Source: Cyanobacteriota bacterium
GTDB taxonomy: Bacteria > Cyanobacteriota > Cyanobacteriia > PCC-6307 > Cyanobiaceae
Direction of reading: 5' to 3'
NCBI GenBank assembly: GCA_026389265.1
Contig: JAPLIE010000102.1
Span: forward strand, 1 to 35,196
Length of the DNA: 35,196 nucleotides
Part shown: one piece after another, positions 3,430-34,993 of the stretch
How the letters are laid out: the number at the start of each line of letters is the position of its first letter
How positions within the stretch are numbered: position 1 is the first letter of the stretch
Notes under the pieces: model-generated
Told to the model about the DNA's origin: nothing
The model's input: the letters and a program-made list of their open reading frames with translations, nothing else
Database searches by the model: none
Translations under genes and position numbers: made by a program

Positions 3430-4491
3430 TTGACAGCCCCATCTTCCGCACTCCAGAGCCCCGGAACCCTGCTTCCCCGACGTCCCCTGCGGGTTGCCGT
3501 GCTCGGCGCCACCGGGGCTGTGGGCCAGGAACTCCTTGCCCTGCTGGAGGAGCGCTGTTTTCCCGTGGCTGAGCTGCTGCCGCTGGCGTCTCCCCGTTCG
3601 GCCGGTCAGCAGGTGTCCTGGCAGGGCGAGAGTCTCACGGTGCAACCGGTGCAGGCCGGCTGTTTCACCGGGGTGGATCTGGTGCTCGCCTCGGCCGGGG
3701 GATCGGTGTCGCGGGCCTGGGCCCCCGAAGCGGTTGCCGCCGGGGCCGTGGTGATCGACAACTCCAGTGCTTTCCGGCTGGATCCCGACGTCCCCCTGGT
3801 GGTGCCTGAGGTGAACCCTGAAGCGGCCTTCCGCCACCGCGGTGTGATCGCCAACCCCAACTGCACCACGATCCTGCTCACCGTGGCCCTGGCTCCCCTG
3901 GCGGCCCGGCGGCCGATTCGGCGGGTGGTGATCAGCACCTACCAATCGGCCAGCGGCGCCGGCGCCCGGGCGATGGAGGAGCTGCGTCAGCTGAGCCGCA
4001 CCGTGCTGGATGGCGGGGAGCCGGAGAGCAGCGTGCTGCCCCATTCCCTGGCCTTCAATCTCTTTCTTCACAATTCGCCGCTGGAGCCGAGTGGTTACTG
4101 CGAGGAGGAGTTGAAGATGCTCAATGAGACCCGCAAGATCATGGAACTGCCGGATCTGCGCCTCACGGCCACTTGCGTGCGGGTGCCGGTGCTGCGGGCC
4201 CATTCCGAAGCGGTGAACATCGAATTCAGCGAACCTTTCCCGGTGGAGGAGGCCCGGGCCCTGCTGGCGGTGGCCCCCGGCGTGGAACTGATCGAGGACT
4301 TCGGCGCCAACCGCTTCCCGATGCCTACCGATGTGACCGGCCGCGATCCGGTGGCGGTGGGCCGCATTCGGCAGGATCTCAGTGAACCCAAGGCCCTGGA
4401 GCTCTGGCTCTGCGGCGATCAGATCCGCAAGGGGGCTGCTCTCAACGCGATTCAGATCGCCGAACTGCTCTGCAAGGAGGTCGAGGGTTGA
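3430..4491 (+). CDS. asd: aspartate-semialdehyde dehydrogenase
   Basis: Asd reduces aspartyl phosphate to aspartate semialdehyde with NADPH, the branch-point substrate for lysine/diaminopimelate, threonine and methionine. The N-terminal NADP-binding loop is GATGAVGQ (residues 26-33), the catalytic cysteine is Cys145 in [10 protein letters not shown], and the substrate-binding stretch [16 protein letters not shown] follows near residue 240. Length (353 aa) is close to the roughly 340 usual for cyanobacteria. The start is inferred: the frame is open far upstream, but similarity begins only at [12 protein letters not shown], and TTG at 3430 is the nearest plausible start, with a weak AGG upstream. 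The stop TGA overlaps the TTG of dapA, so the two are very likely cotranscribed and translationally coupled. lysC, which supplies the aspartyl phosphate, lies about 8.5 kb to the right on the other strand. Confidence 0.94.
4474..4480 (+). promoter_or_regulatory. strong Shine-Dalgarno site for dapA inside the end of asd
   Basis: AAGGAGG lies inside the last codons of asd, 7 nt before the TTG start of dapA. Most other genes here lack such a site. It is consistent with reinitiation by ribosomes finishing asd at the overlapping TGA. Confidence 0.7.
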
Positions 4492-5420
4492 CCGCCATCT
4501 CCCCTGCCGCGATCAGCACGGCGCCCAGTGCCGAGGCGCCTTTCGGCCGCATCGTCACTGCGATGGTCACCCCCTTCGCTCCGGACGGCTCGGTGAATCT
4601 CGATCTGGCCGCCCGCCTGGCCGACCATCTGGTGCGGGAGGGCTCCGATGGCCTCGTGCTCTGTGGCACCACCGGCGAATCCCCCACCCTCAGCTGGGCC
4701 GAGCAGCACGCCCTCTTCGCCGCCGTGAAGGAGGCGGTGGGCGACCGGGCCGCTCTGCTGGCCGGTAGCGGCAGCAACTGCACCGCCGAAGCCGTGGAGG
4801 CCACGGCCGAGGCGGCCGCCCTCGGCGCCGATGGCGCCCTGGTGGTGGTGCCTTATTACAACCGCCCCCCCCAGGAAGGCCTGGAGGCCCATTTCCGGGC
4901 CGTCGCCGCGGCAGCCCCCGGCCTGCCGCTGATGCTTTACAACATCCCCGGTCGTACCGGCTGCAGCCTGGCGCCGGAGACCACGGCCCGCCTGCTGGAT
5001 CTGACCAATGTGGTGGCCTACAAGGCCGCCAGCGGCACCACCGAGGAGGTGAGCCGCCTGCGCCTGCTCTGCGGTGGTGAGCGGCTGGCGATCTACAGCG
5101 GCGATGACGCCCTCACCCTGCCGATGCTGGCCGTGGGCGCCGTGGGCGTGGTGAGTGTGGCCAGCCATGTGGCCGGACCGCAGATCCGCGAGCTGATCCA
5201 GGCCTTCCTGGCCGGCGATCACACCCTGGCTCTGGCCCGGCACGAAGCCCTGTTGCCCCTCCTCCAGGCCCTCTTCTGCACCTCCAATCCCATCCCCGTG
5301 AAGGCCGCCCTGGAGCTCGGCGGCTGGCCGGTGGGTGCTCCCCGTCTTCCCCTCGTCGCCGCTGACAGCACCGTGCGTGAACGCCTCTCCTCAATCCTGG
5401 CTGCCCTGCGTCCCACATGA
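4488..5420 (+). CDS. dapA: 4-hydroxy-tetrahydrodipicolinate synthase
   Basis: DapA condenses pyruvate with aspartate semialdehyde, the first step committed to diaminopimelate (peptidoglycan) and lysine. It is a TIM-barrel class I aldolase. Visible features are CGTTGES (residues 59-65) for substrate binding, Tyr151 in [10 protein letters not shown] and the Schiff-base Lys179 in VVAYKAASG; the Tyr-Lys distance of 28 matches E. coli DapA. The start is TTG at 4488-4490, overlapping the asd stop in TTGA, and is preceded by AAGGAGG at 4474-4480, about 7 nt away. This is one of the few strong Shine-Dalgarno sites in the window and it decides the start. The first 18 residues are a Ser/Ala/Pro-rich extension. 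The arrangement delivers the enzyme next to its substrate producer. At 310 aa it appears complete. Confidence 0.96.
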
Positions 5421-5550: not shown

Positions 5551-7450
5551 ATGAGCAATTTGAACGGATCCCAGCCCGGTAACAACGGCCAAGCCAAAGG
5601 CCAGCCCGCCCTTCGGGTGATCCCCCTCGGCGGCCTGCATGAAATCGGCAAGAACACCTGCGTCTTCGAAGAAACGGATCCGCGGCATGATCGTGACCCA
5701 CGGGCACGAAGATCACATTGGTGGCATTCCCCACCACCTCAAGAATTTTAATATCCCGATCATCTACGGGCCTCGCCTTGCCCTCTCGATTCTCACCGGC
5801 AAGATGGAGGAAGCGGGGGTGATGGACCGCACCATCCTGCAGACCGTCTCTCCCCGCGAGGTGGTGAAGGTGGGTCAGCATTTTTCGGTGGAGTTCATCC
5901 GTAACACCCACTCGATGGCCGACAGCTACACGCTGGCGATCACCACTCCTGCTGGCGTGATTGTTTTCACCGGTGACTTCAAGTTCGACCACACTCCTGT
6001 GGACGGCGAGCACTTCGACATCGCTCGTCTTGCCCATTACGGCGAGCAGGGTGTGCTGTGTCTGTTCTCCGACTCCACGAACGCTGAACTGCCGGGCTTC
6101 TGTCCGCCGGAGCGTTCGGTATTCCCCCACCTGGATCGCCATATCTCCCAGGCTGAGGGTCGGGTGATCATCACCACCTTCGCTAGTTCGATCCATCGGG
6201 TCTCGATGATTCTCGAGTTGGCACTGAAGAACGGCCGCAAGGTGGGTCTGCTGGGCCGCTCCATGCTCAATGTGATCGCCAAGGCTCGCGAATTGGGCTA
6301 CATGCGTGCCCCGGATGAATTGTTTGTGCCGATCAAGCAGATCCGCGATCTGCCCGATCGCGAAACCCTGCTGCTGATGACCGGTAGCCAAGGTGAGCCG
6401 CTGGCGGCCCTGAGCCGCATCTCCCGCGGCGAACATCCCCAGGTGCAGGTCAAGAACAGCGACACGATCATCTTCTCCGCCAGCCCGATTCCGGGCAACA
6501 CCATCTCCGTGGTGAACACCATTGACCGGCTGATGATGCTCGGCGCCAAGGTGGTCTACGGCAAGGGGGAAGGCATTCACGTGTCTGGTCACAGCTTCCA
6601 GGAGGATCACAAGTTGATGCTGGCCCTGGCGCGGCCCAAGTTCTTTGTGCCCGTGCATGGCGAGCACCGCATGCTCGTGGCCCATGCCAAGACCGCCCAG
6701 TCGATGGGGATACCGGCCGACCACACTCTGATCATCGACAACGGCGATGTGGTGGAGCTCACCCCCGATTCGATTCGCAAGGGTGATCCGGTGAAGGCCG
6801 GCATTGAGCTGCTCGATGCTTCGCGCAACGGCATCGTTGACGCCCGCGTGCTCAAGGAGCGCCAGCAGCTGGCCGAGGACGGTGTGATCACCCTGCTGGC
6901 CGTGATCACCACCGATGGGGTGATGGCGGCGCCGCCCCGGGTGAATATCCGCGGCGTGGTGACCACCGCAGATGCCCGCAAGCTCTCGATCTGGGCCGAG
7001 CGCGAGATCACCTGGGTGCTCGAGAACCGCTGGAGCCAGCTCTCCCGCAACACCGGCGGCAAAGCCCCCGATGTCGACTGGGTGGGTGTGCAGCGGGAGG
7101 TGGAGCTGGGCCTGCAGCGCCGCCTGCGCCGCGAGCTCCAGGTGGAGCCCCTGATCATCTGCCTGGTGCAGCCCGCCCCAGCCGGAACGCCGGCCTATAA
7201 GGGCCGCGCCGATGTCGAGCCGGACAACCGCCCCGCTCCCCGGGGCCGTCGAGAGGTTGGCCGTGATGGCGGTCGGGAGCCAGGCCGTGAGCTGTCTCGG
7301 GAGCTGGTGAGGGATCCCGCCCGGGTGGCCGCGGCGGCACCAGCCCCCGCAGCCGCCGCCCCTGAGCCGAAGGACACCGCCCGTAGCGCCGACGAAGCCG
7401 AGCTCTCTGGCCGGACCCGCCGCCGTCGTTCCGCCGCCGTGGCCGGCTAG
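5551..7450 (+). pseudogene. rnj: ribonuclease J, disrupted by a frameshifting internal deletion
   Basis: RNase J is a metallo-beta-lactamase/beta-CASP ribonuclease with 5'-3' exo- and endonuclease activity in mRNA decay and RNA maturation. The 5' part (from ATG 5551) reads RVIPLGGLHEIGKNTCVFE, the canonical N-terminus. Directly after it, at about 5668-5674, the family segment that should follow is missing: about 35 residues carrying the first beta strands and the VDAGLAFP motif. The downstream sequence (KKRIRGMIVTHGHEDHIGG) continues in another frame. Frame 1 runs into missense and stops at 5749-5751; the rest is open in frame 2 to 7450. The shift fits a deletion of 3n+2 nt, roughly 100-110, the length being inferred from memory of the family. 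Everything after the junction looks intact. It may be a true mutation or an assembly error, because RNase J is usually important in cyanobacteria. Confidence 0.8.
5639..7450 (+). CDS. surviving open frame of the broken RNase J gene (metal-binding and beta-CASP parts)
   Basis: This is the part of rnj downstream of the deletion, open from ATG 5639 (out of frame with the true gene until the junction) or from ATG 5687 (MIVTHGHEDH). It retains the metal-binding HGHEDH motif, the TGDFKFD aspartate motif, the beta-CASP domain (SDSTNAE... to the SGHSFQED region) and the late histidine motif VHGEHRML. The C-terminal domain ends in a low-complexity Arg/Gly/Glu then Ala/Pro tail from about base 7200 (GRREVGRDGGREPGRELSREL...), as in other picocyanobacterial RNases J. 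Without the first strands of the metallo-beta-lactamase fold the product is unlikely to fold as an active enzyme. An automated annotation would probably call this a short RNase J. Confidence 0.55.
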   Translation: MKSARTPASSKKRIRGMIVTHGHEDHIGGIPHHLKNFNIPIIYGPRLALSILTGKMEEAGVMDRTILQTVSPREVVKVGQHFSVEFIRNTHSMADSYTLAITTPAGVIVFTGDFKFDHTPVDGEHFDIARLAHYGEQGVLCLFSDSTNAELPGFCPPERSVFPHLDRHISQAEGRVIITTFASSIHRVSMILELALKNGRKVGLLGRSMLNVIAKARELGYMRAPDELFVPIKQIRDLPDRETLLLMTGSQGEPLAALSRISRGEHPQVQVKNSDTIIFSASPIPGNTISVVNTIDRLMMLGAKVVYGKGEGIHVSGHSFQEDHKLMLALARPKFFVPVHGEHRMLVAHAKTAQSMGIPADHTLIIDNGDVVELTPDSIRKGDPVKAGIELLDASRNGIVDARVLKERQQLAEDGVITLLAVITTDGVMAAPPRVNIRGVVTTADARKLSIWAEREITWVLENRWSQLSRNTGGKAPDVDWVGVQREVELGLQRRLRRELQVEPLIICLVQPAPAGTPAYKGRADVEPDNRPAPRGRREVGRDGGREPGRELSRELVRDPARVAAAAPAPAAAAPEPKDTARSADEAELSGRTRRRRSAAVAG

Positions 7451-7457: not shown

Positions 7458-8345
7458 TCAAGGCGTCACCACCACCCGGAGCAGGCCAGCGATCAGCTCC
7501 GGGTCCTCCATCAGATCGTCCGCCTCCTCAAGGGAATCGGCTGGTGCAGGGGTCACGCCCATCTGGGTCGCTGTTCCATCCCCTCGGTGGGCTGTATGGC
7601 GTTCGCGGATGCGCGTGAGTTCAATCTCCAGCTCCTCGGCCAGTCTCGGATCAGCCTGCGCCACCTCCACCAGTTCCGGTTCCTCTACCACCTCCACCTC
7701 AAGGCTGGGCACCAACTCCCCGATGGTCGTGCCAGGCGCGGCGAGCATGCCTCCTACCTCGGTCTGGATAGCTTTCTCCAGGCGGATCGGTGCATCCAGC
7801 CAGGGGGTGGCGGCCTCGGTGATCGCTTCCGCTGCGGTGCCGGCCCGGGGAATCCATTGCCCCTGGCTATCGAGGATCTGATCCCCCAGCGGTTCCGCCG
7901 TGGGTTCGATCGCTGCTCGGGGGAAAAGTTCCTGAGCCACCCTGGGCGAAGCGGCCGCAGCAGCGGAGGCGCCAGTTGCAGTTGCTGGGGCCGTGGTGAA
8001 CATCCCAGCGGCGGCCTCGGAGGCCGCTGGCTTGACCGTCGGCTGGCAGTAGGGCAGGGCCTCCTCGGCGATCCGCCGTAGGTCCGGATCCTCCGAACCG
8101 GCGAGTAGCGCCTGGTAGTGGGGCAGGGCGGCGGCAGGGTCGCGGAGTCCGTAGAGGTGGGCGTGGCCCAGCAGCAGGTGCGCCCGGCTGGCCAGATCAG
8201 CGGTCACGGGATCGGGATCATTGCTCAGATCGGCGATCAGCTGGCCTCCCTGTTCCAGCACATCCGGCCAGCGATCTTCGGTGTAGGCCCGTTCGAGTTC
8301 CGCGTAGCGCTCGCCGGGGTCATTCGCCAGGGGGGATGGGGCCAT
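7458..8345 (-). CDS. hypothetical protein with TPR-like N-terminus
   Basis: I do not recognise a named family. From ATG 8343-8345 the product is 295 aa. Residues 1-100 are helical and resemble tetratricopeptide repeats (ERYAELERAYTEDRWPDVLEQGGQLIADL..., then LLLGHAHLYGLRDPAAALPHYQALL), suggesting a protein-interaction scaffold. Residues 105-150 are Ala/Thr/Ser-rich and probably disordered. The C-terminal part is strongly acidic (EVEVVEEPELVEVAQADPRLAEELEIEL, with DSLEEADDLMEDPELIAGLLR at the end). No signal peptide or membrane segment is seen. The frame is open to 8504, but that part overlaps tilS out of frame. With the chosen start it overlaps the 3' end of tilS by 26 nt on the same strand, so the pair is probably cotranscribed and coupled. 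It faces rnj tail to tail. Confidence 0.8.
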   Translation of the reverse strand: MAPSPLANDPGERYAELERAYTEDRWPDVLEQGGQLIADLSNDPDPVTADLASRAHLLLGHAHLYGLRDPAAALPHYQALLAGSEDPDLRRIAEEALPYCQPTVKPAASEAAAGMFTTAPATATGASAAAAASPRVAQELFPRAAIEPTAEPLGDQILDSQGQWIPRAGTAAEAITEAATPWLDAPIRLEKAIQTEVGGMLAAPGTTIGELVPSLEVEVVEEPELVEVAQADPRLAEELEIELTRIRERHTAHRGDGTATQMGVTPAPADSLEEADDLMEDPELIAGLLRVVVTP

Positions 8346-9429
8346 GGCCGGGATCGCGGATAGCGGAGAGCTGGAGAACCAGTGTGCTCCGATCCCAGCG
8401 CAATTGCCATCCGTCGGCCAGATTCCAAGCACCAGTACCCCCTTGCTCGGCGAGCCGGCTGGCGAGATCCTCCAGCGCCCGCGCCGGCTGGGCGGGAACA
8501 CCATGCAGCGTCAGCCACCGCTCCAGCAGCAGCCGCCGGTTGCCGCGGCTGAGCCTGCCCAGACCATCACGCCCGAGAACCCGGCTGCTGTCCCCTGGCG
8601 CCGCAATCAGGCCCTGCAAGGCGAGCGCCACAAGCTCATCCTGAGCGGCGAGCTCCTCCTCCAGGCGCCCGGTCAGGGCGCCGATCCGGCGGACGGCGCC
8701 GGGATGGAGAGCCTCCAGCACGGGCATCACCTCGGCCCGGACCCGATTGCGCCCGAACCGGGTGTCGAGGTTGCTGCTGTCCTCCCAGATCGGCACCTCC
8801 AGCTCGCGGCAGATCCGCCCGGTGTCCTCCCGGCTGAAGGGCAGCAGGGGCCGCACCAGCCTGATGGGCTCCCTTCGGTCGCCATCCCCGGGGCTTTCCC
8901 GTTCCCGGCCTAGCTCTGGCCCTGTTTCTGCGGTTAAGGAGCGCACGGGCTTCAGGCTGGCCAGGCCGCGCCGGTGGCTGCCCCGGGCCAGGTTGAGCAA
9001 CAGGGTCTCGGCTCGGTCGCTGGCGGTGTGGCCCGTCACCACGTGGGAGATGGCAAGGGCGGCCGCCTGGCGCCGCAGGAAGTCGTAGCGCCAGCGGCGG
9101 GCGGCCGCCTCCCCGCCGGGCGGCTCCGCGGCCTGCTCAAGCAGCAAGGGCAGCTTCTGGGTGTGGGCCCAGGCCTGCAGCTCCCCGGCCTGCTGGGCCG
9201 CCTCGGCGCGCCAGCCGTGATCGCCATGCCACAGCACCAGCCGCCAGTGGTGCAGCCGACGCAGGTCAGCCAGCAGCACGGTGAGGGCCATCGAATCCTG
9301 CCCGCCCGATACGGCCAGCAACAGCGACGACCCAGCGGGCAGCAGCTCCGGATGGCGCAGCAGGTGACGGTGCAGGCGCTGATGGTGGGGGCTCCAGCGG
9401 GTTGGAGAGGTCTCGGATGGGAGAATCAC
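8320..9429 (-). CDS. tilS: tRNA(Ile)-lysidine synthase
   Basis: TilS modifies cytidine 34 of the tRNA-Ile with a CAU anticodon to lysidine, so that it reads AUA and not AUG. It is an N-type ATP pyrophosphatase: the PP-loop is SGGQDS (residues 41-46) in LLLAVSGGQDSMALTVLL, and GHTASDRAETLLLNLARGS and WEDSSNLDTRFGRNRVR are conserved family stretches. The C-terminal region is short (369 aa total), typical of cyanobacterial forms. The start is GTG at 9427-9429, chosen because alignable sequence begins near residue 12; no Shine-Dalgarno site is clear. The DUF561 gene starts on the other strand only 23 bp away, so the promoters of both must lie within or at the edge of the opposite gene. The TPR-like gene overlaps its end. 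Confidence 0.93.
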   Translation of the reverse strand: MILPSETSPTRWSPHHQRLHRHLLRHPELLPAGSSLLLAVSGGQDSMALTVLLADLRRLHHWRLVLWHGDHGWRAEAAQQAGELQAWAHTQKLPLLLEQAAEPPGGEAAARRWRYDFLRRQAAALAISHVVTGHTASDRAETLLLNLARGSHRRGLASLKPVRSLTAETGPELGRERESPGDGDRREPIRLVRPLLPFSREDTGRICRELEVPIWEDSSNLDTRFGRNRVRAEVMPVLEALHPGAVRRIGALTGRLEEELAAQDELVALALQGLIAAPGDSSRVLGRDGLGRLSRGNRRLLLERWLTLHGVPAQPARALEDLASRLAEQGGTGAWNLADGWQLRWDRSTLVLQLSAIRDPGHGPIPPGE

Positions 9430-21303: not shown

Positions 21304-21789
21304 TTGGCGGTTTTCGAAGGGCGCTTCACCGATACGGCCAACCTGCGGATCGCCGTGGTGGTTGCCCGTTTCAACGATCTGGTCACCGGCAAGCTGCTGA
21401 GCGGCTGTCTGGATTGCCTGTCACGCCACGGCATCGATACGGCCCCCACCAGCAGCCAGCTGGATGTGGCCTGGGTGCCCGGCAGTTTTGAGATCCCTCT
21501 GGTGGCCCAGCGCCTCGCCGCCAGCGGCCGCTACCAAGTGGTGATCACGCTGGGGGCCGTGATCCGCGGCGACACCCCCCATTTCGACGTGGTGGTGGCC
21601 GAGGTGGGCAAGGGCGTTTCCGCCGTGGCCCGCGACACCGGCATCCCGGTGATCTTCGGCGTGCTCACCACCGACACCCTGCAGCAGGCGCTCGAGCGGG
21701 CGGGGATCAAGAGCAATCTGGGCTGGAGCTACGCGATGCAGGCGCTGGAGATGGGGAGTTTGATGGGGGCGCTTTCGGCGGCCGGATGA
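21304..21789 (+). CDS. ribH: 6,7-dimethyl-8-ribityllumazine synthase
   Basis: RibH condenses the ribityl-pyrimidine intermediate with dihydroxybutanone phosphate to make lumazine, the penultimate step to riboflavin. Conserved blocks are [61 protein letters not shown] (catalytic His in DTPHFD) and [19 protein letters not shown]. The length of 161 aa is normal. The only start near the conserved N-terminus is TTG at 21304, 5 bp after the psbZ stop, giving [10 protein letters not shown]. An AAGG directly before it is too close to be an ideal ribosome site, so coupling with psbZ may matter. It is the last high-GC core gene before the glycan island. Confidence 0.94.
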
Positions 21790-21824
21790 TGGCGCAAGGC
21801 GATCATTGTTGAGCAGTAAAGCAG

Positions 21825-23150
21825 ATGGTTATTTATTACGATTTTTCATATCTTTATCATCGGCCAAATAATCATACCGGTATTCAACGGGTTATTCGTT
21901 GCCTGTACAGCGCCCTTAAGGAGGTATCCGCTGCTCATGAAATCGATGCAATTGTGCCCTTTGCTTTAGTGGGCGATCGTTTTATGGCAGTTTCCGACGA
22001 TTCCATTGTTCCCAAGTCTGCCCTCTCCCGGCAGGTGGAGCCTATAAGGGGCACCAAAGCATTTGTTGATGTTCATCGTCGGGACTCTTCCGACCCCAAA
22101 GCATTGGCGAAGCGGCTTTTAAATCGCGCCCGCAGCCTAAATGTTCCACCTTTGGTGCAGAGGAGTGCGCGGTATGCGATCAATTGCGTCGGTGCTGTGG
22201 GCCAAACCTTAAGCAGGTCTGATTCTGAACTGATTCCGATTAACCCGATGCCGGGGGATTGGCTGCTAACAGGCGATACAGCTTGGGATCGTTCAGAGCA
22301 GTTCTGGGGCATTGTTGACGAATGGCGGGGGAAAGGCGTGAAAGCACTTACCATCTTTTACGATGCTTTGCCTTATTTCGAGCCAAGTTTTTTCCTGTCT
22401 CGCAATGTTGATCTCTGGCGCAGCTACTTTCTGCGTGCCATTAGCTCCACCGACCTTTGGGCCGCCATTTCTGAGACAGCACGGCAAGATTTACTGAGAA
22501 TGATAGCAATTGAAGCACCTAGGACGAAACCATTTGCTATTCCATTCCCAATGGGTGTGAGCCGAGAGAGCCTTGGTTTTGATCCCGCATGGCCGATCGA
22601 AGCCCCGGCTGATTTGGATCCGTTGATTCTGTGTGTCGGCAGTCTGGATGCACGAAAGGGCCATGCCATTCTTTTGGATGCACTAGAGAAAAGTAGCAAG
22701 GCTAGGGTGCTGGTCTTTGGAAGAGATACCGGTGCTGGTGCCCAAGCCATGGCCACTAGGATTCTCAGACATCCCTTGTATGGTTCACGTTTATTTTGGA
22801 TCCGGGATGGATCAGATCGTGAACTCGCCTATTGGTATCAACAATGCTGCGCCATTGTTTGTCCATCCCGCGCCGAGGGCTTTGGTCTTCCTTTGATTGA
22901 GGCGGCATGTTATGGAAAACAAGTGATTGCTAATCGCATTCCTATTTTCGAAGAAGTTGCTTCTGCCTATGAATTGGCAGTATGCTTCTATGCAACCGAT
23001 TGCTGCGAATCGCTTGCGGCCCTGCTGGATCGATTTGCCCTTGGAGCGGAACTACAGGCAGATCTCAAGGCTGGGGTCGGCGGCACGATTCATATTCCTG
23101 ACTGGACAGTATCTGCTCGGCAATTGCTGAAGACATTGTCTCTTGCTTGA
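21825..23150 (+). CDS. glycosyltransferase, GT-B fold (family 4 type)
   Basis: This 441-aa protein is a retaining-type glycosyltransferase that probably adds a sugar from a nucleotide donor to a growing surface glycan on the cytoplasmic face of the membrane. The N-terminus (YYDFSYLYHRPNNHTGIQRVIRCL) has the GIQRV acceptor-side motif common in GT4 enzymes of polysaccharide clusters. The C-terminal donor domain shows LILCVGSLDARKGHAILLDAL and the E-x7-E motif in PSRAEGFGLPLIEAACYGKQVIA. Donor and acceptor cannot be predicted. It starts only 35 bp after ribH, yet base composition drops sharply here (the first 150 bases are clearly AT-rich), marking the left edge of the island. It faces the next gene tail to tail with a 20-bp gap. 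Confidence 0.85.
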   Translation: MVIYYDFSYLYHRPNNHTGIQRVIRCLYSALKEVSAAHEIDAIVPFALVGDRFMAVSDDSIVPKSALSRQVEPIRGTKAFVDVHRRDSSDPKALAKRLLNRARSLNVPPLVQRSARYAINCVGAVGQTLSRSDSELIPINPMPGDWLLTGDTAWDRSEQFWGIVDEWRGKGVKALTIFYDALPYFEPSFFLSRNVDLWRSYFLRAISSTDLWAAISETARQDLLRMIAIEAPRTKPFAIPFPMGVSRESLGFDPAWPIEAPADLDPLILCVGSLDARKGHAILLDALEKSSKARVLVFGRDTGAGAQAMATRILRHPLYGSRLFWIRDGSDRELAYWYQQCCAIVCPSRAEGFGLPLIEAACYGKQVIANRIPIFEEVASAYELAVCFYATDCCESLAALLDRFALGAELQADLKAGVGGTIHIPDWTVSARQLLKTLSLA

Positions 23151-23170
23151 CCGCTAGGGATTCAGATTAG

Positions 23171-24055
23171 TTAGCTGAAAAAGCCAAGACTGGCAATTTT
23201 AATTCTGCGTATCCTCCAGGGAATGCTAAGGGCAAGGTAGTGTAATTGGGCAAAGATTAATTTAAGCCATGGCGTGATATTGCTTGGTTGGTTGACCAGT
23301 TGCTTGTGTTTTAAGCGCAGTTTATTGGCCAGACCACTCGTTAGGTTGTGTCGATGCAGCCGATAGGCTGCAAGCGCTTCGGGCACATTGAAGTAGCTTG
23401 GAGTTCCTTTGCTGAATAATCGGATCCAGGCATCGTGATCTTCATGGATTACTGGGTGAAATCCTTCCCCCAATAGTTCACGACGAATCAGCATGGTCGA
23501 TAGGGGGATCGTGTTGATGTTGGTCAGTTGAGCCAGGTTTAGCCTGGCTGGTGGCGTCCTTCGTTCGATCACGTAGCCACTTTGATGATCAAAGCGGTAA
23601 TAGGATGTAGTGCAAATATCCCAGTTGTTCTGATCCAGGGCGTGCAATTGGAACTCTAGCTTTCGCGGGTGCCAAAGATCATCCGCATCAAGAAAGGCGA
23701 TCAGGGAAAAACGCGCCGCAGCTAATCCAATGTTACGGGGCCACCAGGGTCCAGGAGAAATGCCTTGTGGTCGTTGAGAACTGATTAAACGAAATCTGCA
23801 ATCTGCTGCAACAAATTTTTCTACGATTGCTCGGCCTCTATCTTCGTATGCGATCCCATCGTCGATCAATAGAGCTTCCCAGTGAGGATGGGTTTGCTGC
23901 TGAATCGAGAGGCAGCAGGCCTCCAGGAAGCCGCCAGCTAGGCGAAATGGAACGATGATCGAAACGCTGGACTGCCAAGTCAACTGGTTGCTTTGGAAGG
24001 GTAAGTTGTAGCATACCAAGGGGCATTGGATGAGCCTAGTCAAGGTCAACCCCAT
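23171..24055 (-). CDS. glycosyltransferase family 2 (GT-A fold)
   Basis: An inverting, GT2-like glycosyltransferase of 294 aa. The N-terminal GT-A domain begins at about residue 30 (SVSIIVPFRLAGGFLEACCLSIQQQTHPHWEALLIDDG), with the metal-binding DxD-type motif in LIAFLDADDLWHPRKLEFQ and a later acceptor-side EDHDAWIRLF (the ED of the catalytic base region). The first 28 residues are less conserved; the ATG at 24053-24055 is used, but an internal start is possible. C-terminal residues 245-294 are basic and partly hydrophobic, consistent with peripheral membrane contact. It is divergent from the following gene with only 28 bp between starts, so the two share a very short promoter region. Low GC, as in its neighbours. 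Confidence 0.85.
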   Translation of the reverse strand: MGLTLTRLIQCPLVCYNLPFQSNQLTWQSSVSIIVPFRLAGGFLEACCLSIQQQTHPHWEALLIDDGIAYEDRGRAIVEKFVAADCRFRLISSQRPQGISPGPWWPRNIGLAAARFSLIAFLDADDLWHPRKLEFQLHALDQNNWDICTTSYYRFDHQSGYVIERRTPPARLNLAQLTNINTIPLSTMLIRRELLGEGFHPVIHEDHDAWIRLFSKGTPSYFNVPEALAAYRLHRHNLTSGLANKLRLKHKQLVNQPSNITPWLKLIFAQLHYLALSIPWRIRRIKIASLGFFS

Positions 24056-24083
24056 GGTTGGATGTTAATTCTCTCCCAGCTTG

Positions 24084-25247
24084 ATGCACCCTATGAAAAT
24101 CGCTTTTGACATCAGTCAAACTGGGACTGCTAAGGCTGGTTGCGGATTCTACGCCGCAGCTTTGATCGACGAGTTGCTTAAGACGGCAAATGAGCATGAT
24201 TTTATGCTCCTCACCAGTTTTGGTGATTTTTTCCATGATTCTGCGATGGCGTCACCTTCTGCCAGCCGGTATAGAGGAGTTAGGTATGGACCCCGCCTAA
24301 AGAGAAGGGAAGATGCCGAGATTTTTTGGGGAGATTCTAAGCAAATTGCCACTTTGTTTACAGATTTTGATGTTTTGCATGCCAACAACTTCTGGTGTCC
24401 ACCCGGTTGGGTCCAAGCTGATGAGGCACGTCCATCCCTGATTTATACGGTTTACGATCTAAGTTTCGCCGAACACCCTGAATGGACATCAGAGGCCAAT
24501 CGGGTTGGCTGTTTTAACGGGATGTTTTATGCCTCGCTTTGCGCCGATTGGTTTGTGGCGATCTCTGATGCCACTAGGCAGTGCTTCCTGCATCATTTTC
24601 CCCATGTCGATCCTTCACGGGTAAAACTCATCTATCCAGCCTCCCGTTTCGAGCGGGATGGGCACAATGCTATAGCGGAGCCACCAAAACATCACTTCTT
24701 TGGCACAGGCGTTCCGTTTTTTCTCTCAGTAGGCACGATTGAACCTCGAAAAAATCAGCGTTTCTTGGTAAAGGCCTATAATCAATACCGTGCTGCTGGC
24801 GGATTTCCTATTCCGTTGGTCCTTGCTGGCGGCAAGGGTTGGTTGATGGATGACTTCAGCACCTTTTTATCAAGCTCTCCTTGGTCAAAGGATATTCATC
24901 TGCTCGGCTATGTTAGTGAGGCGGAACTCGCTTGGCTTTATACCCATTGCCTCGCCAACCTTTATCCGAGTCATTACGAGGGTTTTGGCTTGCCAGTTCT
25001 TGAGGGTATGGGCATGGGCGCCGTTACAGTCGCCGCGAACAGCACATCCCTTCCGGAGATTGTGGGTGATGCAGGTTTGCTGCTGGGTTGTCGTGATCTA
25101 GAAGGATGGGCTGAGGCCCTTTCCATGATTTCCAGGGAGGAAAAGATTGTTCGTGAGCTTTCGGTCGCCGCCAGAGAGCGTGCTTGCTTATTTAATTGGG
25201 CAACTAGCACGGAGGCCCTGCTGTCTCTTTATGAGCAAGCTTCTTGA
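24084..25247 (+). CDS. glycosyltransferase family 4 (GT-B fold)
   Basis: This 387-aa GT4 enzyme has a typical N-terminus (MKIAFDISQTGTAKAGCGFYAAALIDELL), a hinge with FFLSVGTIEPRKNQRFLVKAY, then GYVSEAELAWLYTHCLANLYPSHYEGFGLPVLEGMGMG, containing the E-x7-E motif, and TSLPEIVGDAGLLLG. The PRKN element after VGTIEP and the ASLPE-like donor loop are typical of the mannosyl/rhamnosyl-type enzymes of this family, but the sugar is not determined. ATG 24084 is used; ATG 24093 (MKIAF) is an equally good start, and neither has a clear Shine-Dalgarno site. Its 3' end overlaps the convergent GT2 gene by 19 bp. Confidence 0.87.
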   Translation: MHPMKIAFDISQTGTAKAGCGFYAAALIDELLKTANEHDFMLLTSFGDFFHDSAMASPSASRYRGVRYGPRLKRREDAEIFWGDSKQIATLFTDFDVLHANNFWCPPGWVQADEARPSLIYTVYDLSFAEHPEWTSEANRVGCFNGMFYASLCADWFVAISDATRQCFLHHFPHVDPSRVKLIYPASRFERDGHNAIAEPPKHHFFGTGVPFFLSVGTIEPRKNQRFLVKAYNQYRAAGGFPIPLVLAGGKGWLMDDFSTFLSSSPWSKDIHLLGYVSEAELAWLYTHCLANLYPSHYEGFGLPVLEGMGMGAVTVAANSTSLPEIVGDAGLLLGCRDLEGWAEALSMISREEKIVRELSVAARERACLFNWATSTEALLSLYEQAS

Positions 25248-26134
25248 TCGGCCGTTGGGGTGGTTGCTGGTTGGCGGGGACGCCTAAGTTCCTGAAGGTC
25301 TGCAAAGTCGAGCTTATGATTCCAATGCATCAGACTGCGCATAGTCTGGAGATAAAGAACAAATTTGAAGCGCCTTGGATGTTGGCTTCTGTCAATCCAG
25401 GCATGGGTATGGTGGTGGGCATAGGCATAAATCCATTTGAGCGGTACCCTGCCGTCATGAGCTTTGAACATCTCCCCAATCTCTTGGTGAACAGCGACAC
25501 GGTTGGATAGGGTTTTGTTGTCGGCGTAGAGGCGTGATCCAGCAAGTTTTGCAGGGTGATATTCGAATCGACAGCCAGCATCTGCAAGCCGTAGCCAATA
25601 GTTATAGTCCATGCAGTAATGCAGGCTGGCATCTAGTAAGCCAACTTTGCCAATAACTCGACGGCGAAAGAAGAGGGCTGGCTGACAAATAAAGCAAGTC
25701 TGGCGTAACTTTTCAGGATTCCATGGAATCGTCGGATATTCCTCAAATGGATGGTCGTCCACATCGATGTGGTCGGCCATTCCGTAAAGAACATCGAGAT
25801 TAGGATCTGAGTTGAAGGCCTCAGCTACTTGTTCAAATGCTCCCGGGTAGTAGATATCGTCGGAATTCAGCCAGGCAATCACGTCTCCCTCAGCACTCTG
25901 GAGGCCCTGGTTCACTGCGTCTGCCTGGCCGCCATCCGGTCGGGAGACCCAGCGGATCGAGCTTCCCGCTGCTTTAAGCACGTCTAGGGTCGTGTCACTA
26001 CTCCCTCCATCAAAGATCAGATGTTCATGGGCCGGATAGTTTTGGTTCGCAACGCTGGCGAGGGTGCGCCCGATGAAGCCACCTTGATTGAAGGAGGGTG
26101 TGATGACGCTGATCCGGAGGGGCTTTCCATTCAT
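25229..26134 (-). CDS. glycosyltransferase family 2 (GT-A fold)
   Basis: A 301-aa GT2 enzyme. It begins LRISVITPSFNQGGFIGRTLASVANQNYPAHEHLIFDGGSSD, a textbook GT2 start, and carries RPDGGQADAVNQGL (nucleotide-sugar region) and the metal site WLNSDDIYYPGAFEQV. The acceptor-side part includes HYCMDYNYWLRLADAG, where MDYxxWLRL is a signature of a large GT2 subgroup in capsule and O-antigen clusters. It is the last of four genes read leftward from about 29.3 kb. Its ATG overlaps the stop of the preceding GT4 gene by 4 nt, so it is translationally coupled to it. Its own stop lies within the convergent GT4 gene on the plus strand. Confidence 0.88.
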   Translation of the reverse strand: MNGKPLRISVITPSFNQGGFIGRTLASVANQNYPAHEHLIFDGGSSDTTLDVLKAAGSSIRWVSRPDGGQADAVNQGLQSAEGDVIAWLNSDDIYYPGAFEQVAEAFNSDPNLDVLYGMADHIDVDDHPFEEYPTIPWNPEKLRQTCFICQPALFFRRRVIGKVGLLDASLHYCMDYNYWLRLADAGCRFEYHPAKLAGSRLYADNKTLSNRVAVHQEIGEMFKAHDGRVPLKWIYAYAHHHTHAWIDRSQHPRRFKFVLYLQTMRSLMHWNHKLDFADLQELRRPRQPATTPTADQEACS

Positions 26135-27336
26135 CGCTTTGGACCGGCAGCAAAGGCTTCGACAAAGAGATCCCAGTATTGATCGGCCATGACCCCCGTG
26201 TCAGCGTATAAGGCAGCCTGGCGTAGTCCTTGTGTGGCAAGGCGGCTACGCAGGCTGGCGTCGCTGGCGAGTTGCAGCAGGGCGGTGGCGATTTCTTGGG
26301 GGTTGCCTGGGTGGAATCGCAGGGCGGCTTCGCCGACTACTTCCTGTAGGGCCGTGGTGCCGCTGCAGGCCACGGGAATACCCCGGGCCATGGCCTCAAT
26401 CACGGGCATGCCGAAGCCTTCATAGAGCGATGGAAAGACAACTGCCAAGGCATGTTGGTAGAGCCCCTCCAAGTCGTCGCTGCTGAGGAAGCCTGGAAGC
26501 ACAACCGACTCCTTGAGGTTGAGGACAGACGCAATACTTCTTAGATTTTCAACTCGGCCTTGGCCGTCACCGGTGCAGACCAGTTGTAAATCTTCTGGTA
26601 AGCCTTGTTGGCGGGCCATTGCAAAGGCGGTCAGTAGCATTTCGTGGTTTTTATGCGGCCATAGATTGGCGGGATATAGAAAGAAACGGCCGGACACCAC
26701 CCCGCACGGAGGATGGGCGACGACTTTAGGAGCACGATGGTGTGCTAATTGATGCGGGATCGTGCGGATCCGATCGGGATCAACCCCATTGTTTGTGGCA
26801 ACTCCGCGTGAGAAATCGGAGACCGCTGCGATGCGACTGGCTTGTTTGGCCATTCTTCTAAAATTGATGAGTCGTTCTTCCCGTTCTTTAGAGTTGAAGA
26901 AGTTCGGATAGGCTTGCACCTGGAGGTCATGAAAGGTTGAAACTATTGGCACTCCGGGCCGCTCTAGAAGCGTGGGTCCAAAGGGGCAATAAAGCAGGTC
27001 GGGTTTAGCGGAGTTATTCGGTATGGCCTGCCAAAGGCGTTTGAGTAGTTTCAGGCCACGTTGGCGGATGGAGTGGAGTTTTCGGGAACCCAAAAGACGG
27101 GAATTGACGCCGGTTTCTGAGTTAGAGCCATCTAGAACTTTGAACAACAGGTTTGGTTTTGTCATCGTCGCCACCTCTGCAAACACAGCCTGCCTGACCA
27201 CGGCGGTAAAGCTGGCGGCAGGCTGGCGATCACTCAATTCTTTGAGCAGGGCCAACATGAAGGGCTTGGCTCCACCATTGATACCTCCAGGTAAGAGTGG
27301 TGTGAGATCCACCAGGATCTTTTGTGGTTGGTCCAT
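26131..27336 (-). CDS. glycosyltransferase family 4 (GT-B fold)
   Basis: This 401-aa GT4 protein has the N-terminal GGINGGAKPFMLALLKEL loop, a mid-region DLLYCPFGPTLLERPGVPIVSTFHDLQ with the typical THD-like motif near the active site, AAVSDFSRGVA (acceptor/donor hinge), then RFFLYPANLWPHKNHEMLLTAF and FPSLYEGFGMPVIEAMARGIPVACSGTTALQEVVGEAALRF with the E-x7-E motif. The PANxWPHKN element occurs in a subgroup often found with mannose or rhamnose polymers, but donor identity stays open. GC (about 55% by eye) is higher than in the first island genes. The ATG at 27334-27336 lies 28 bp after the previous gene on this strand, suggesting one transcript with its neighbours. Confidence 0.88.
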   Translation of the reverse strand: MDQPQKILVDLTPLLPGGINGGAKPFMLALLKELSDRQPAASFTAVVRQAVFAEVATMTKPNLLFKVLDGSNSETGVNSRLLGSRKLHSIRQRGLKLLKRLWQAIPNNSAKPDLLYCPFGPTLLERPGVPIVSTFHDLQVQAYPNFFNSKEREERLINFRRMAKQASRIAAVSDFSRGVATNNGVDPDRIRTIPHQLAHHRAPKVVAHPPCGVVSGRFFLYPANLWPHKNHEMLLTAFAMARQQGLPEDLQLVCTGDGQGRVENLRSIASVLNLKESVVLPGFLSSDDLEGLYQHALAVVFPSLYEGFGMPVIEAMARGIPVACSGTTALQEVVGEAALRFHPGNPQEIATALLQLASDASLRSRLATQGLRQAALYADTGVMADQYWDLFVEAFAAGPKR

Positions 27337-27364
27337 GAGATATGCATCATTGAACTTGATGTGT

Positions 27365-28327
27365 CTAGTTTAGTATGGTGCCGCAAGTGATCAAAGGCAG
27401 CATCGGTGCCATCCGCTCTGGGCGGTGGCGCCACGCCTCGATCTGCTGCTCACTAAGCTTGCGCATTGTCCTTGAGTTTGTGATCAACTCTTTGAGGGCA
27501 TGGGCTTGTTGTTCAGCCGAGAATTGACGCCAGTCTAGTTCCGCAATGTCGAGCCAAAGGGGCCATTCGCCAAGGACAGGTACGCAGCAGCCAGCCAGCA
27601 GTGCCTCCGCTTGTGCAAAGCCGAACGACTCATAATCTGCAGGCAGAAAGAGGACGCTTGCTTGTCGTAATTCTTGTTGTACCTGATCGTCATCGACACC
27701 AACTCTTAGCGTAAGATTATCAGGCATGGGACCTTCCGGCTCGGTGGGCACCAAGGCCAAGGCCGGCAGATTGGTCATGACGATTAAGTCTAGAAATAGG
27801 GGCCAGCCCTTCTGGGCAACGGGCCTTCCAAGGTACACAACCGCAAAGGGCCGCGGCTGAAAAGACGCGCCTTGCTGGCTGGTTTCCACTTCTGTGGGCC
27901 ACGTTTGTCCGTGCTCTATGGAAAAAGGAAGGCTAATAACAACGCACCGGCCCGAATCGAGATGCAATCTTTCTGCCTCGGAGAGTGCGCAAATCGTTAT
28001 TCCTATTTTTTGGCTTAGTCGCAGAGCCTTAGCGGCAATTCTGGCCTTGCCCTTATGGCGGACATGGCCTGCAGGATGGAAACAGGGAATCCATATCACA
28101 GATTGTCCTCGCAACCTGGCTCGAATGGCAGTTCGATAAGCCCATGGACTGCTGCAGCCCAGTATAATCAGGGCTGTCAATTGCTTCGGTACGGGCGAGC
28201 CGGCCTTGATGATGCTTGTCGTATAGCCTCTATGGAGCAGTTCGGCTTCGAGTAGATTCTTGAGCGTTTTAATGCCGCCGATGTTGGTAAAACCGTTTGG
28301 CTCTCCGATCAGGCCTATGTGTGCCAT
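27365..28327 (-). CDS. glycosyltransferase (GT-B, family 4-like, divergent)
   Basis: A 320-aa protein best read as a diverged GT4 enzyme. It starts MAHIGLIGEPNGFTNIGGIKTL. The middle has SVIWIPCFHPAGHVRHKGKARIAAKALRLSQ and a switch-like ITICALSEAERLHL. The donor domain shows FAVVYLGRPVAQKGWPLFLDLI and LPADYESFGFAQAEALLAGCCVPVLGEWPLWL, in which E-x7-E is kept but the surrounding residues differ from the island's other enzymes. It is shorter than typical GT4 enzymes (350-400), the N-terminal domain being reduced. ATG 28325-28327 was chosen over a TTG ten codons upstream. It lies between gmd and the next GT4 gene on the same strand, with gaps of 38 and 28 bp. Confidence 0.75.
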   Translation of the reverse strand: MAHIGLIGEPNGFTNIGGIKTLKNLLEAELLHRGYTTSIIKAGSPVPKQLTALIILGCSSPWAYRTAIRARLRGQSVIWIPCFHPAGHVRHKGKARIAAKALRLSQKIGITICALSEAERLHLDSGRCVVISLPFSIEHGQTWPTEVETSQQGASFQPRPFAVVYLGRPVAQKGWPLFLDLIVMTNLPALALVPTEPEGPMPDNLTLRVGVDDDQVQQELRQASVLFLPADYESFGFAQAEALLAGCCVPVLGEWPLWLDIAELDWRQFSAEQQAHALKELITNSRTMRKLSEQQIEAWRHRPERMAPMLPLITCGTILN

Positions 28328-28365
28328 GGGTAGAAGTTGGTCTATTGCTAATGGCAAGTTATGAT

Positions 28366-29322
28366 TTAAAGAATTCTATCTTCGAGCATGCGCTGAACAA
28401 TATCTGGCAATCCAACTTCTGCTCGCCAATTCAGTTCGGATGAAATGAGGGCTGGATTCATTGCTGAATACCGAAGGTCACTTGGCCGCAGAAGAGTGTC
28501 ATCGCTGATCAGGTATTTCTCTGGATTGAGATTGGCGCACGCAAATGCATGTCGCACAAAATCGTTTAAAGAGTTGGTTTTCCCGGTGGCAATTAAATAA
28601 TCCTTGGCAATGGTTTGTTGCAGCATCGCGTGCATCGCCACGACATATTCTTGGGCCCATCCCCAGTCCCGCCAGATATCGAGATTGCCAAGCCGTAGTT
28701 CTCGTCGATCACCTCTGATGATTTCCCGAACTGCTGCGATGATTTTCATCGTTACGAAGCGATTTGGCCGAAGCGGTGATTCATGGTTGGCGAGAATGCC
28801 TGTGCAGCAGAACATACCATACGCCTGTCGATAATTCGCAACTTGCCAATATGCGGTGCTTTTGGCTACAGCATATGGGCTGCGCGGATGGAAGGCTGTT
28901 TCTTCGCTGGCTGGTTCGCCGTTGGTGTCTCCGAAGCATTCTGAGCTACCTGCGCTGAACATTCGTGTCGGTGCGCCAAGATAGCGCAACACTTCAAGGA
29001 AGTTGAGCGTTCCCCCAGCGATAGACTCCATGCATTCAACCGGTTGTTCGAAGGATAAGCCTACACTTGTTTGACCAGCAAGATTATAAATTTCAGTAGG
29101 TTCAATGGAAGAAAGGGCCTTTAGAACACTGCGGAAGTCGTTTGGGGCAATCGAAATGACCTCTACATCTTGGAGGATGCCAATACGGCGGAGCCGGGTG
29201 GTGTCACAAGTTTGGGCATCCCGGCTGCTACCGATCACCCTGTATCCGGCATTCAGCAGGTGATGGGCTAGATAGGCCCCATCTTGGCCAGTAACGCCAG
29301 CTATTAGAGCGGTTTTAGTCAT
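28366..29322 (-). CDS. gmd: GDP-mannose 4,6-dehydratase
   Basis: Gmd converts GDP-mannose to GDP-4-keto-6-deoxymannose, the precursor of GDP-L-fucose, GDP-D-rhamnose and related deoxy sugars. It is an extended SDR: the nucleotide loop is GVTGQDG (residues 9-15), the active-site region is MFSAGSSECFG, and the YxxxK pair is Tyr150 and Lys154 in SPYAVAKSTAYW. Family blocks NHESPLRPNRFVTMKI and LRLGNLDIWRDWGWAQEYV are nearly perfect and separate it from generic epimerases. At 318 aa it is slightly shorter than many Gmd proteins. No GDP-fucose synthase or GDP-4-keto-6-deoxymannose reductase gene is in the window, so the final sugar is unknown. It is probably the first gene of a leftward operon with the three glycosyltransferases beyond it. 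Confidence 0.93.
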   Translation of the reverse strand: MTKTALIAGVTGQDGAYLAHHLLNAGYRVIGSSRDAQTCDTTRLRRIGILQDVEVISIAPNDFRSVLKALSSIEPTEIYNLAGQTSVGLSFEQPVECMESIAGGTLNFLEVLRYLGAPTRMFSAGSSECFGDTNGEPASEETAFHPRSPYAVAKSTAYWQVANYRQAYGMFCCTGILANHESPLRPNRFVTMKIIAAVREIIRGDRRELRLGNLDIWRDWGWAQEYVVAMHAMLQQTIAKDYLIATGKTNSLNDFVRHAFACANLNPEKYLISDDTLLRPSDLRYSAMNPALISSELNWRAEVGLPDIVQRMLEDRIL

Positions 29323-29732
29323 GGGCGCTTTTGCACTATTGGGGATGCAAGGCTAGACCTTGATGCAGTTTGAGCCACCAAGGTTTTCACTTGACCTAGC
29401 CGCCACTGGGCAAGCGTTGGATCATGGCTCAATTGTGGAATAACGAATCGCAAAACACTCGTGTGTCGTCTTCCTGAGAACATGTTAAGGGCATACCTTG
29501 TCGAGGCATGAGCCAGGCTTTTGTTTGCGTCTCGCCATCGGTGGTTGATCCATTCTGCTCCTAAGCACCCCCTGCAGCCCGCTCGACAGGGTCGTCCTCC
29601 GTCCACGTCGTCTTCCGTCAAGGTCCTCCTCACGGGGATTTGACCATGGGCACCCCGGTCGTGCATGATGGCGTTGATGAGGCGCTTGCTGCCCCATCAG
29701 CGGAAGCCTGCCTGATCAGGCTCCTGCAAACT
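29323..29732. other. 410-bp gap between gmd and tRNA-Gly, no recognisable gene
   Basis: This holds the upstream region of gmd and the left flank of tRNA-Gly. Two short open frames exist on the minus strand (29319-29666, 115 codons, overlapping the gmd start; and 29485-29697), but neither resembles a family I know and their composition is Arg/Gly-rich. It may be decayed DNA from an earlier insertion beside the tRNA gene, although I cannot identify a transposase remnant. The half nearest gmd is lower in GC than the half nearest the tRNA, so a composition change occurs within the gap near 29,500. Confidence 0.4.
29705..29722 (+). other. small hairpin/palindrome 10 nt upstream of tRNA-Gly
   Basis: AGCCTG (29705-29710) pairs with CAGGCT (29717-29722) around a 6-nt loop, and CCTGATCAGG (29711-29720) is itself a perfect palindrome. 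It lies just before the tRNA 5' end. Possible readings are a protein-binding site, the end of an upstream transcript or a remnant of a recombination site. Confidence 0.3.
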
Positions 29733-29804
29733 GCGGATGTAGCTCAGTGGTAGAGCATCTCCTTGCCAAGGAGAGGGTCGAGAGTTCGAATCTCTTCATC
29801 CGCT
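29733..29804 (+). tRNA. tRNA-Gly (anticodon GCC)
   Basis: All four arms fold. The acceptor stem GCGGATG pairs with CATCCGC and the discriminator base is T29804. The D arm is GTAGCTCAGTGGTAGAGC, and the anticodon stem TCTCC/GGAGA encloses the loop TTGCCAA with anticodon GCC. The T arm is GAGAGTTCGAATCTC. The gene does not encode CCA. Its last nine bases overlap the 3' end of the GNAT gene on the other strand. It sits next to the lower-GC glycan island; tRNA-Gly genes are frequent integration targets, though no duplicated 3' end was found within the window. Confidence 0.97.
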
Positions 29805-30338
29805 TGTTTTCTGGTTTCCCTGGCGGTAAACCACCAGCAGTTGCTGGCCATGCTCGCCGCAAAATCCCAGCTTTTCGTAAAATCCGCTGCTATTGGTGGT
29901 CATCAGGTAGACCCGTTCGCTGGTAGCCACCGGGGGGCTGGCCAACAGGGCCTGCACGATCCTGCGGCCCAGGCCCCGTCCCTGGTGTTCCTCGGCTACC
30001 ACCACATCCCACAGCACCGCGCGGAACACCCCATCGCTCGTGGCCCGGCCGATGCCCACCAGCTGTCCCTCCTGCCAGGCGCTCACCACGCTGCAGCTCC
30101 CCAGCAGCATGCGCACCAGGGCCCCGCGGCTGCGCCCCTGGGCCCAGAAGCTGTGGTTGTCAAAGAGCTTCCGCACCTGGTTGATCGCAAGCAGCAGCCG
30201 CAGCGGTAGGCGGCCGTGATGCACCAGCTGGATCGCAGCGATGGCATTGCTCTCAGGCCCAGCGGCCATGGCGGCGTTGGCCTCGGGGTTGATCTCGGGG
30301 TTGGTGATCTTGTTGCTGGGAACGCTGGGGCTGGACAC
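29796..30338 (-). CDS. GNAT family N-acetyltransferase
   Basis: A 180-aa acetyltransferase of the GNAT fold, likely acting on a small molecule or protein amine with acetyl-CoA; the substrate is unknown. The acetyl-CoA binding motif A is VVVAEEHQGRGLGRRIVQALL (QGRGLG pyrophosphate loop, about residues 115-135), preceded by strand LVGIGRATSDGVFRAVLWDV and followed by VYLMTTNSSGFYEKLGF. The stop codon and last two sense codons lie inside the tRNA-Gly gene, so the C-terminus is partly encoded by the antisense of the tRNA acceptor arm. The start is unsure: GTG 30336-30338 gives this length, but a strong hairpin begins directly upstream of it; the internal ATG at 30267-30269 (157 aa, MAAGPESNAIAAIQL) keeps the whole fold. 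Confidence 0.87.
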   Translation of the reverse strand: MSSPSVPSNKITNPEINPEANAAMAAGPESNAIAAIQLVHHGRLPLRLLLAINQVRKLFDNHSFWAQGRSRGALVRMLLGSCSVVSAWQEGQLVGIGRATSDGVFRAVLWDVVVAEEHQGRGLGRRIVQALLASPPVATSERVYLMTTNSSGFYEKLGFCGEHGQQLLVVYRQGNQKTSG

Positions 30339-30377
30339 GGATTCAGGGGGCGGCCGGCTCGTCGGACCCCCGAATCC
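30339..30377. other. strong hairpin directly upstream of the GNAT reading frame
   Basis: GGATTC-A-GGGGG (30339-30350) pairs with CCCCC-GAATCC (30367-30377): eleven base pairs, one bulged A and a GC-rich 16-nt loop. It directly abuts the GTG candidate start of the GNAT gene (30338), where it would hinder ribosome binding. No T-run follows on either side. It lies in the 275-bp divergent region between GNAT and secA and could be an RNA regulatory hairpin or a protein-binding site. Confidence 0.45.
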
Positions 30378-30613
30378 TCGCCCCCGGGCGGATCAATCCA
30401 CCGGGCGATCCTGATCACGCCCCCACTCCCAGCGGGCTGGCCGTGCGGGTTCGCCAGGCTCCCGGGGCGCTGTGAGCTTCTTTCGTACGGCGCTATCAGG
30501 CCGGCAATCCACCCCGTGTGAACCGGCAGAACCCTTGCGCTACCTCACGTTTTGGCCCATCGGTGGCTTCTTTGCAGTGGTAAGCTGGCCGAATTCGGTT
30601 GGTTGTTCCCCCC

Positions 30614-33475: not shown

Positions 33476-34224
33476 TGGAGCCCGTTCTTGAGCTGCGGGA
33501 TGTTTGGTTGCGCATCCCAGTGGCCACCTTGGAAACCAGGAGCCTTAAAAAGGTATTGATCCGCTCCGTCACCGGGGGGGCGCTGCGCAAGTCTGGATCG
33601 GGCGCCGAAATCGAGGCCCTAAGGGGCATTAGTTGCACGATTTACCACGGTGAAAGGATTGCTCTGATTGGCCACAATGGTGCTGGCAAGTCCACCTTTT
33701 TGCGTCTCGTCTCTGGCATTTATCAGCCCACCAGTGGTCTTTTTCGAGCCTATTGCCCGGTGTTTCCGATGATCCAAAAGAGCTTCATCACCAGTCCTGA
33801 TCTCAGCGGTATGCAGGCGGCAAAGGGGCATTATTTGTTGATGCATGGTAATTTACTCGGCTTTGATGCTTTCATTGAGGACGTGATTGATTTTTCTGGT
33901 CTCGGCGATTTTATTCATTTGCCGATGAAGGGTTACAGCGAAGGCATGGGTGCCCGCTTGCTCTTCTCGATGCTCACCGCATCCCAGCATGATTGCTTGG
34001 CAATGGATGAGGGTTTTGGTGCTGGTGACGCCCGTTTCTTTGAGCGCGCCCAGCGACGTATGGAAGACTTCATTGGTTCAGCTGGTACCTTATTGCTTGC
34101 AAGCCACGCAAGTGAGCTCTTGCGGCAGTTCTGTACCCGTGGGCTGGTCTTTCATCAGGGCCAGATTGTATGCGATGCTTCTTTGGAGGAGGCGTTGACT
34201 TATTACCATGAACACTGCATTTAA
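33475..34224 (+). CDS. ABC transporter ATP-binding protein, polysaccharide export (Wzt/TagH-like)
   Basis: The ATPase of an ABC exporter that moves a lipid-linked or finished polysaccharide across the plasma membrane. Walker A is GHNGAGKS (residues 66-73), the signature motif is the variant YSEGM (154-158) typical of the polysaccharide-export subfamily, Walker B is CLAMDE (174-179) and the switch histidine lies in [13 protein letters not shown]. About 50 residues precede the core ([10 protein letters not shown]..., then [24 protein letters not shown]), the subfamily layout. The protein ends after the ATPase domain at 249 aa, so the sugar-binding extension of some Wzt proteins is missing. The start GTG at 33475-33477 shares a base with the secA stop; no ribosome site is visible, so coupling to secA is likely. 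The permease gene overlaps its 3' end by 17 nt. Confidence 0.9.
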
Positions 34225-34993
34225 ATCTTTGCACTATGCCTGGCGCACTCGTCGCGCCTGGTGGTTTACGGCCACAGCCCGCACCAAAGCTCGTTTTGCT
34301 CGCACTGCGCTAGGGAGCTTTTGGCTTGGTCTCTCTAACCTTTTTTCGATTGCGGCCCTGGCGCTCGTCTATGGAACGGTCTTTAAAGTTCAGGATTTTC
34401 CCCGCTACGTCGTCTACTTGGGAACAGGCTTGGTGATTTGGAACGCCATCGCTGCAGCACTAAGCTCTGCCCCTAGCTTGTTTGAGTACAATGCTGGCCA
34501 CTTGAAGAATACCAATTTAAACCCAATATTTTATACTCTTGAAGAGTGGGCTTTCCAGGTTCAATCCTTTGCCCAGTCCTTTGGACTTGTTCTGGTAGTG
34601 TTGTCATTTTATCAACCTACTCTTTTGTTGCATCTGTTTTCTGTGGGCTTGCTTCCCTTGCTTAATGTTATCTTATTCCTTTATTGGCTGCCGCTGCTTC
34701 TTTGCCTTTCAGGGGCGCGGTTTCGCGATTTGTTCCAGCTTGTTCCCATCATTATTCAGCTAGTGTTTCTCCTTTCTCCTATTCTCTATGAAAAGGAAAG
34801 TCTGGGCACTATGGCTTGGACTGCAGACTACAACGCCCTTTACCGTATTTTGAGTCCTCTCCGCCACGCCTTGATTCATGGCGAGTTAAAGGTTGGCCAG
34901 TCTTTCCTGATCCTCGCAGTTAATGTGGCGGGTATCTGGATCTCCCTCTTTCTGCTGGAGCGGCAACGACGCTATTTACCCTTCTTGGTTTGA
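34208..34993 (+). CDS. ABC-2 type polysaccharide export permease (Wzm/TagG-like)
   Basis: The membrane partner of the ATPase encoded just upstream. The 261-aa protein shows about six membrane segments: [30 protein letters not shown] (about 31-60), [19 protein letters not shown] (72-90), [18 protein letters not shown] (115-132), [29 protein letters not shown] (136-165), [20 protein letters not shown] (173-192) and [18 protein letters not shown] (234-251). The N-terminal amphipathic [19 protein letters not shown], which leads into ALGSFW, is the coupling region of ABC-2 polysaccharide exporters. The ATG at 34208 is inside the ATPase gene, so translation is coupled. From here the DNA is AT-richer than secA. 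137 bp separate it from a transposase start. Confidence 0.9.

Follow-up and report, generated by a model that had tools for sequence, protein, structure and literature searches.

Is the RNase J gene (rnj) of this Cyanobiaceae bacterium broken in the living cell, or only in the draft assembly from which it is read? The stretch of DNA analysed here, called the window below, is 35,196 nt long and is an entire contig (C189 of assembly G000) in a draft genome of 3.49 Mb and 214 contigs, 95.4% complete and with 3.0% contamination. Upstream of rnj and on the same strand lies a DHDPS-family gene (4488-5420), named dapA from its Pfam domain, and downstream on the opposite strand lie an ORF (7458-8504) that matches no Pfam family and then a PP-loop gene (8320-9429), which we take to be tilS. 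An earlier note had described rnj as broken by a deletion just before its catalytic motif and had left a recent loss, a compensated loss and an assembly error as explanations.

Frame 1, read from the rnj start codon, encodes MSNLNGSQPGNNGQAKGQPALRVIPLGGLHEIGKNTCVFE and then continues as ETDPRHDRD... to a stop at 5749-5751; the downstream frame carries KRIRGMIVTHGHEDH and the rest of the RNase J domains (Table 1). The Pfam Lactamase_B match of the downstream ORF starts at profile position 41 of 196, and of the metallo-beta-lactamase domain Pfam and NCBIfam detect the later part only. The beta-CASP (PF22505), RMMBL (PF07521) and RNase J C-terminal (PF17770) domains all score above their Pfam cut-offs, and the NCBIfam model TIGR00649 is matched with 534 bits against a cut-off of 400. 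Of the features by which an RNase J, an RNA-degrading enzyme of the beta-CASP metallo-beta-lactamase type, is recognised, the HxHxDH motif (here HGHEDH) and these three domains are therefore in place; the frame that should run unbroken between the N-terminal strands and HxHxDH is interrupted at the junction, and the conserved Asp strand VDAGLAFP, presumably MBL motif 1, is absent.

Table 1. Features of the interrupted rnj locus (positions in the window).
Feature	Position	Strand	Description and basis
5' fragment of rnj	5551..5669	+	Canonical through Glu40; ATG at 5551
Junction, 107 nt of G023 absent	5669..5670	+	Alignment with G023 DNA; pattern found in this genome only, of 42 in the genus
3' part of rnj, shifted frame	5670..7450	+	Rest of metallo-beta-lactamase domain, beta-CASP, RMMBL and C-terminal domain; Pfam and NCBIfam
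Mechanical ORF, 603 aa, ATG out of rnj frame	5639..7450	+	11 residues unrelated or junction-spanning, then RNase J from Lys77
HGHEDH motif, retained	5699..5716	+	Sequence; aligned with solved RNase J

The reference for the size of the gap was the closest genome found (G023, locus L003), whose rnj encodes one uninterrupted 668-aa protein with 98% identity. The alignment with its DNA holds to the left and to the right of 5669/5670, and positions 1374-1480 of its locus, exactly 107 nt (3 x 35 + 2), have no counterpart in the window. The gap takes the third base of Glu40, codons 41-75 and the opening base of Gln76; had the lineage of the window already carried GAA for Glu, losing codons 41-75 and two bases of the Gln76 codon would give the same junction. 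The missing stretch codes for YGDDLMLVDAGLAFPSDGMHGVNVVLPDTSYLREN together with parts of the adjoining codons, and with G023 as the stand-in for the lost bases the homology between the breakpoints is 0 or 1 nt. This comparison bears out most of what had been read from the letters of the window, namely that rnj is canonical through its first 40 codons and leaves its frame after Glu40, that the net loss is of 3n+2 nt with the proposed arithmetic of Glu and Gln codons, and that a stretch of about 35 residues containing VDAGLAFP is gone. The placing of the deletion just before the catalytic motif holds in that the gap precedes HGHEDH, but the conserved Asp strand is removed as well.

Identity to G023 is level over the junction (0.964, 0.970 and 0.952 in successive 500-nt bins, gaps uncounted). 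The rnj gap is one of 27 indels that separate the window from G023 over 21.7 kb, and none of the 26 others shifts the frame within the Pfam domains of tig, dapA, the tilS-like gene, uvrB, aspartate kinase or the epimerase; elsewhere than in those six genes there are several whose length is not divisible by three (among them those at 431, 10234, 14924, 15024 and 17671). The contig thus does not look generally error-ridden by this comparison. A reference-free scan for frameshifts by codon usage, run on 243 kb of this genome (the window and a further 207.8 kb drawn from 20 of the 214 contigs) and on 428 kb of G023 as a control, was set aside as a measure of assembly error, as it missed rnj, its positive control; it made 9 candidate calls in this genome and 15 in G023, in samples that share too little DNA for a direct comparison.

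The same alignment yielded observations away from rnj. At position 16007, immediately before an NAD-epimerase gene, G023 has 34 extra nt, which appear to be two added copies of a 17-nt unit starting AGAGGTGGATCGG and would represent variation in copy number. The window is colinear with the compared part of G023 contig C4, which runs to the contig end, as far as about position 21,765, and in the remainder (21765-35196) the sole further match to that contig is an inverted and 100% identical tRNA-Gly(GCC) gene at 29732-29805.

The segment that the window lacks is present in all of the relatives' loci tested. Among 111 sequences, consisting of the window, its own copy (L002) and 109 relatives' loci drawn from 29 of the 38 matched genomes (this one excluded) and the best 80 of 255, only the window and its copy are without the segment in frame. 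All 109 loci carry it in frame and without gaps; when a stretch of 1,500 nt is compared letter for letter, 92 of them are distinct and 17 are duplicate records. The octamer reads VDAGLAFP in 94, VDGGLAFP in 7, LDAGLAFP in 4, VDAGLSFP in 3 and LDAGLGFP in 1, with the Asp kept in every case, and by alignment the strand has its counterpart in two RNase J1 sequences of solved structure. The seven relatives with VDGGLAFP are L037, L088-L091, L096 and L099. Across the genus, an RNase J match was found in 40 of the 42 genomes searched, with this one counted. Of the 41 others, 37 have a single match with one open frame through the segment and two have partial matches at contig ends (G016, starting at contig base 1, and G047, ending one base before the contig end); no RNase J match was found in the incomplete genomes G001 (83% complete) and G048 (88%; about 30 contigs). 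Relatives that are at least 90% complete have a match in 34 of 34 cases, this genome excluded, and in 32 of 32 in the genus-wide search. Intact relatives with the same junction did not turn up: of the 42 genomes, the junction pattern, searched with up to three mismatches, occurs in this one alone.

Outside the gap, the gene shows no decay. Codons 1-39 differ from G023 by one synonymous and no nonsynonymous change. Past the junction, the two genes are separated over the first 517 codons by 64 synonymous changes and 2 nonsynonymous ones (dN/dS 0.009); the tail past codon 517 is looser (dN/dS 0.18). When the changes in the 517 codons are polarised with 11 outgroups, 32 synonymous and 2 nonsynonymous fall on the window branch and 30 synonymous and no nonsynonymous on the G023 branch, with 2 synonymous unassigned. 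In a calculation that used 30 synonymous changes, about 91 nonsynonymous ones would be expected had the window branch been neutral throughout, and the neutral part of that branch, counted from the divergence from G023, has a 95% upper bound of about 7%. Judged from these counts, the rest of rnj is under strong purifying selection. The near-absence of nonsynonymous change and the small neutral share therefore mean that the break, if real, is recent; the earlier note had taken the lack of decay to suggest a recent event or an error. That both nonsynonymous changes lie on the window branch slightly favours a real loss, if anything, and two events say little.

A second source of the activity was sought in the same genome. 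No second RMMBL-family gene was found in it, the single one being the broken rnj, and a compensated loss thus gains no support from another RNase J; of the two backups that had been proposed, only RNase E is represented, by one RNase E/G gene. Among the 40 of 66 first-look candidates that were scored, no other place in the assembly held the missing segment. The only hit besides the rnj start was a match of 42 bp at 83%, rejected as a chance match, which sits in a stretch translating to ALLLVDACQSLP of a gene that looks to us like sufS.

Taken together, these observations make it probable that the 107-nt gap and the frame change are an artefact of assembly or consensus and that the organism's rnj is intact. 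A false join or chimeric consensus in the draft contig would have dropped the 107 nt; the organism would carry an ordinary, working rnj, and the gap, we infer, would be absent from the living cell. An artefact is likelier than biology because the gene is undecayed, is reported to be essential elsewhere, and is broken in one draft but whole in the relatives looked at, and the fragmentation and contamination of the draft and the restriction of the junction to one genome in 42 are consistent with it. Against it stand the lack of any breakpoint repeat longer than 1 nt to explain a collapse, an identity to G023 that stays level through the junction, and the undisturbed frames in the Pfam domains of the six genes checked. 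Most short-read assemblers also need some molecule that carries a junction, which counts against an artefact. That a deletion really and recently occurred, perhaps in only some of the population, accordingly keeps an appreciable minority share of the probability. The form of it that ranks next after the artefact, a very recent deletion in some cells or chromosome copies that was taken as the consensus while intact copies keep the function, assumes polyploidy and is rather unlikely; it fits breakpoints without repeats and a gene otherwise undamaged, with the loss taking up no more than about 7% of the branch. What speaks against it is that, within the candidates scored, the assembly yielded neither a second, intact copy nor a piece of the segment, although assemblies often omit the alternative allele.

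What is described for Synechocystis bears on these readings in different ways. There, RNase E and RNase J coexist, deletions of rne and rnj could not be brought to full segregation and both genes are called essential, and partly segregated rnj disruption strains grow (PMC7283877), the last of which agrees with a deletion in a subpopulation. By analogy, we infer that rnj may be essential in this organism as well. Reported essentiality (PMC7283877), the matches in all sufficiently complete relatives and the undecayed remainder of the gene all weigh against a recent loss that is fixed, with RNase E and other nucleases covering the work of RNase J; such a loss is improbable, even with a single RMMBL gene found, an RNase E/G gene present and clean breakpoints. 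A real and recent loss of RNase J in a picocyanobacterium of the free-living Cyanobium type is likewise improbable. Least probable is a functional shortened RNase J that arises by frameshifting or by initiation within the gene, at ATG 5639 or beyond. The downstream frame stays open over 609 aa and keeps HGHEDH, but residues 41-75 are missing by either route, their Asp is kept throughout the relatives' loci and aligns with the corresponding strand in the two solved RNase J1 sequences, and the junction occurs in none of the 41 other genus genomes. Neither route would restore a normal enzyme, because the missing piece holds the VDAGLAFP strand, and a programmed frameshift or internal start was set aside with 35 codons missing either way.

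In the simplest reading the gap is an error of assembly or a mutation that is very recent, and no new biological system. The case is mainly a warning that a gene-presence table built from this draft would list RNase J as lost or truncated. A deletion shown to be real and fixed would put the reported essentiality of RNase J in cyanobacteria to the test, and a true loss would be an experiment of nature on whether RNase E can by itself sustain cyanobacterial RNA turnover. Compared with bacterial and cyanobacterial RNase J, the rnj of the window differs in the absence of 107 nt and residues 41-75 and in its changed frame. It resembles those enzymes (TIGR00649; solved structures 6k6s, 3zq4 and 3bk1) in having one rnj gene, HGHEDH and the beta-CASP, RMMBL and C-terminal domains, and its post-junction part is 98% identical to the cyanobacterial RNase J of G023.
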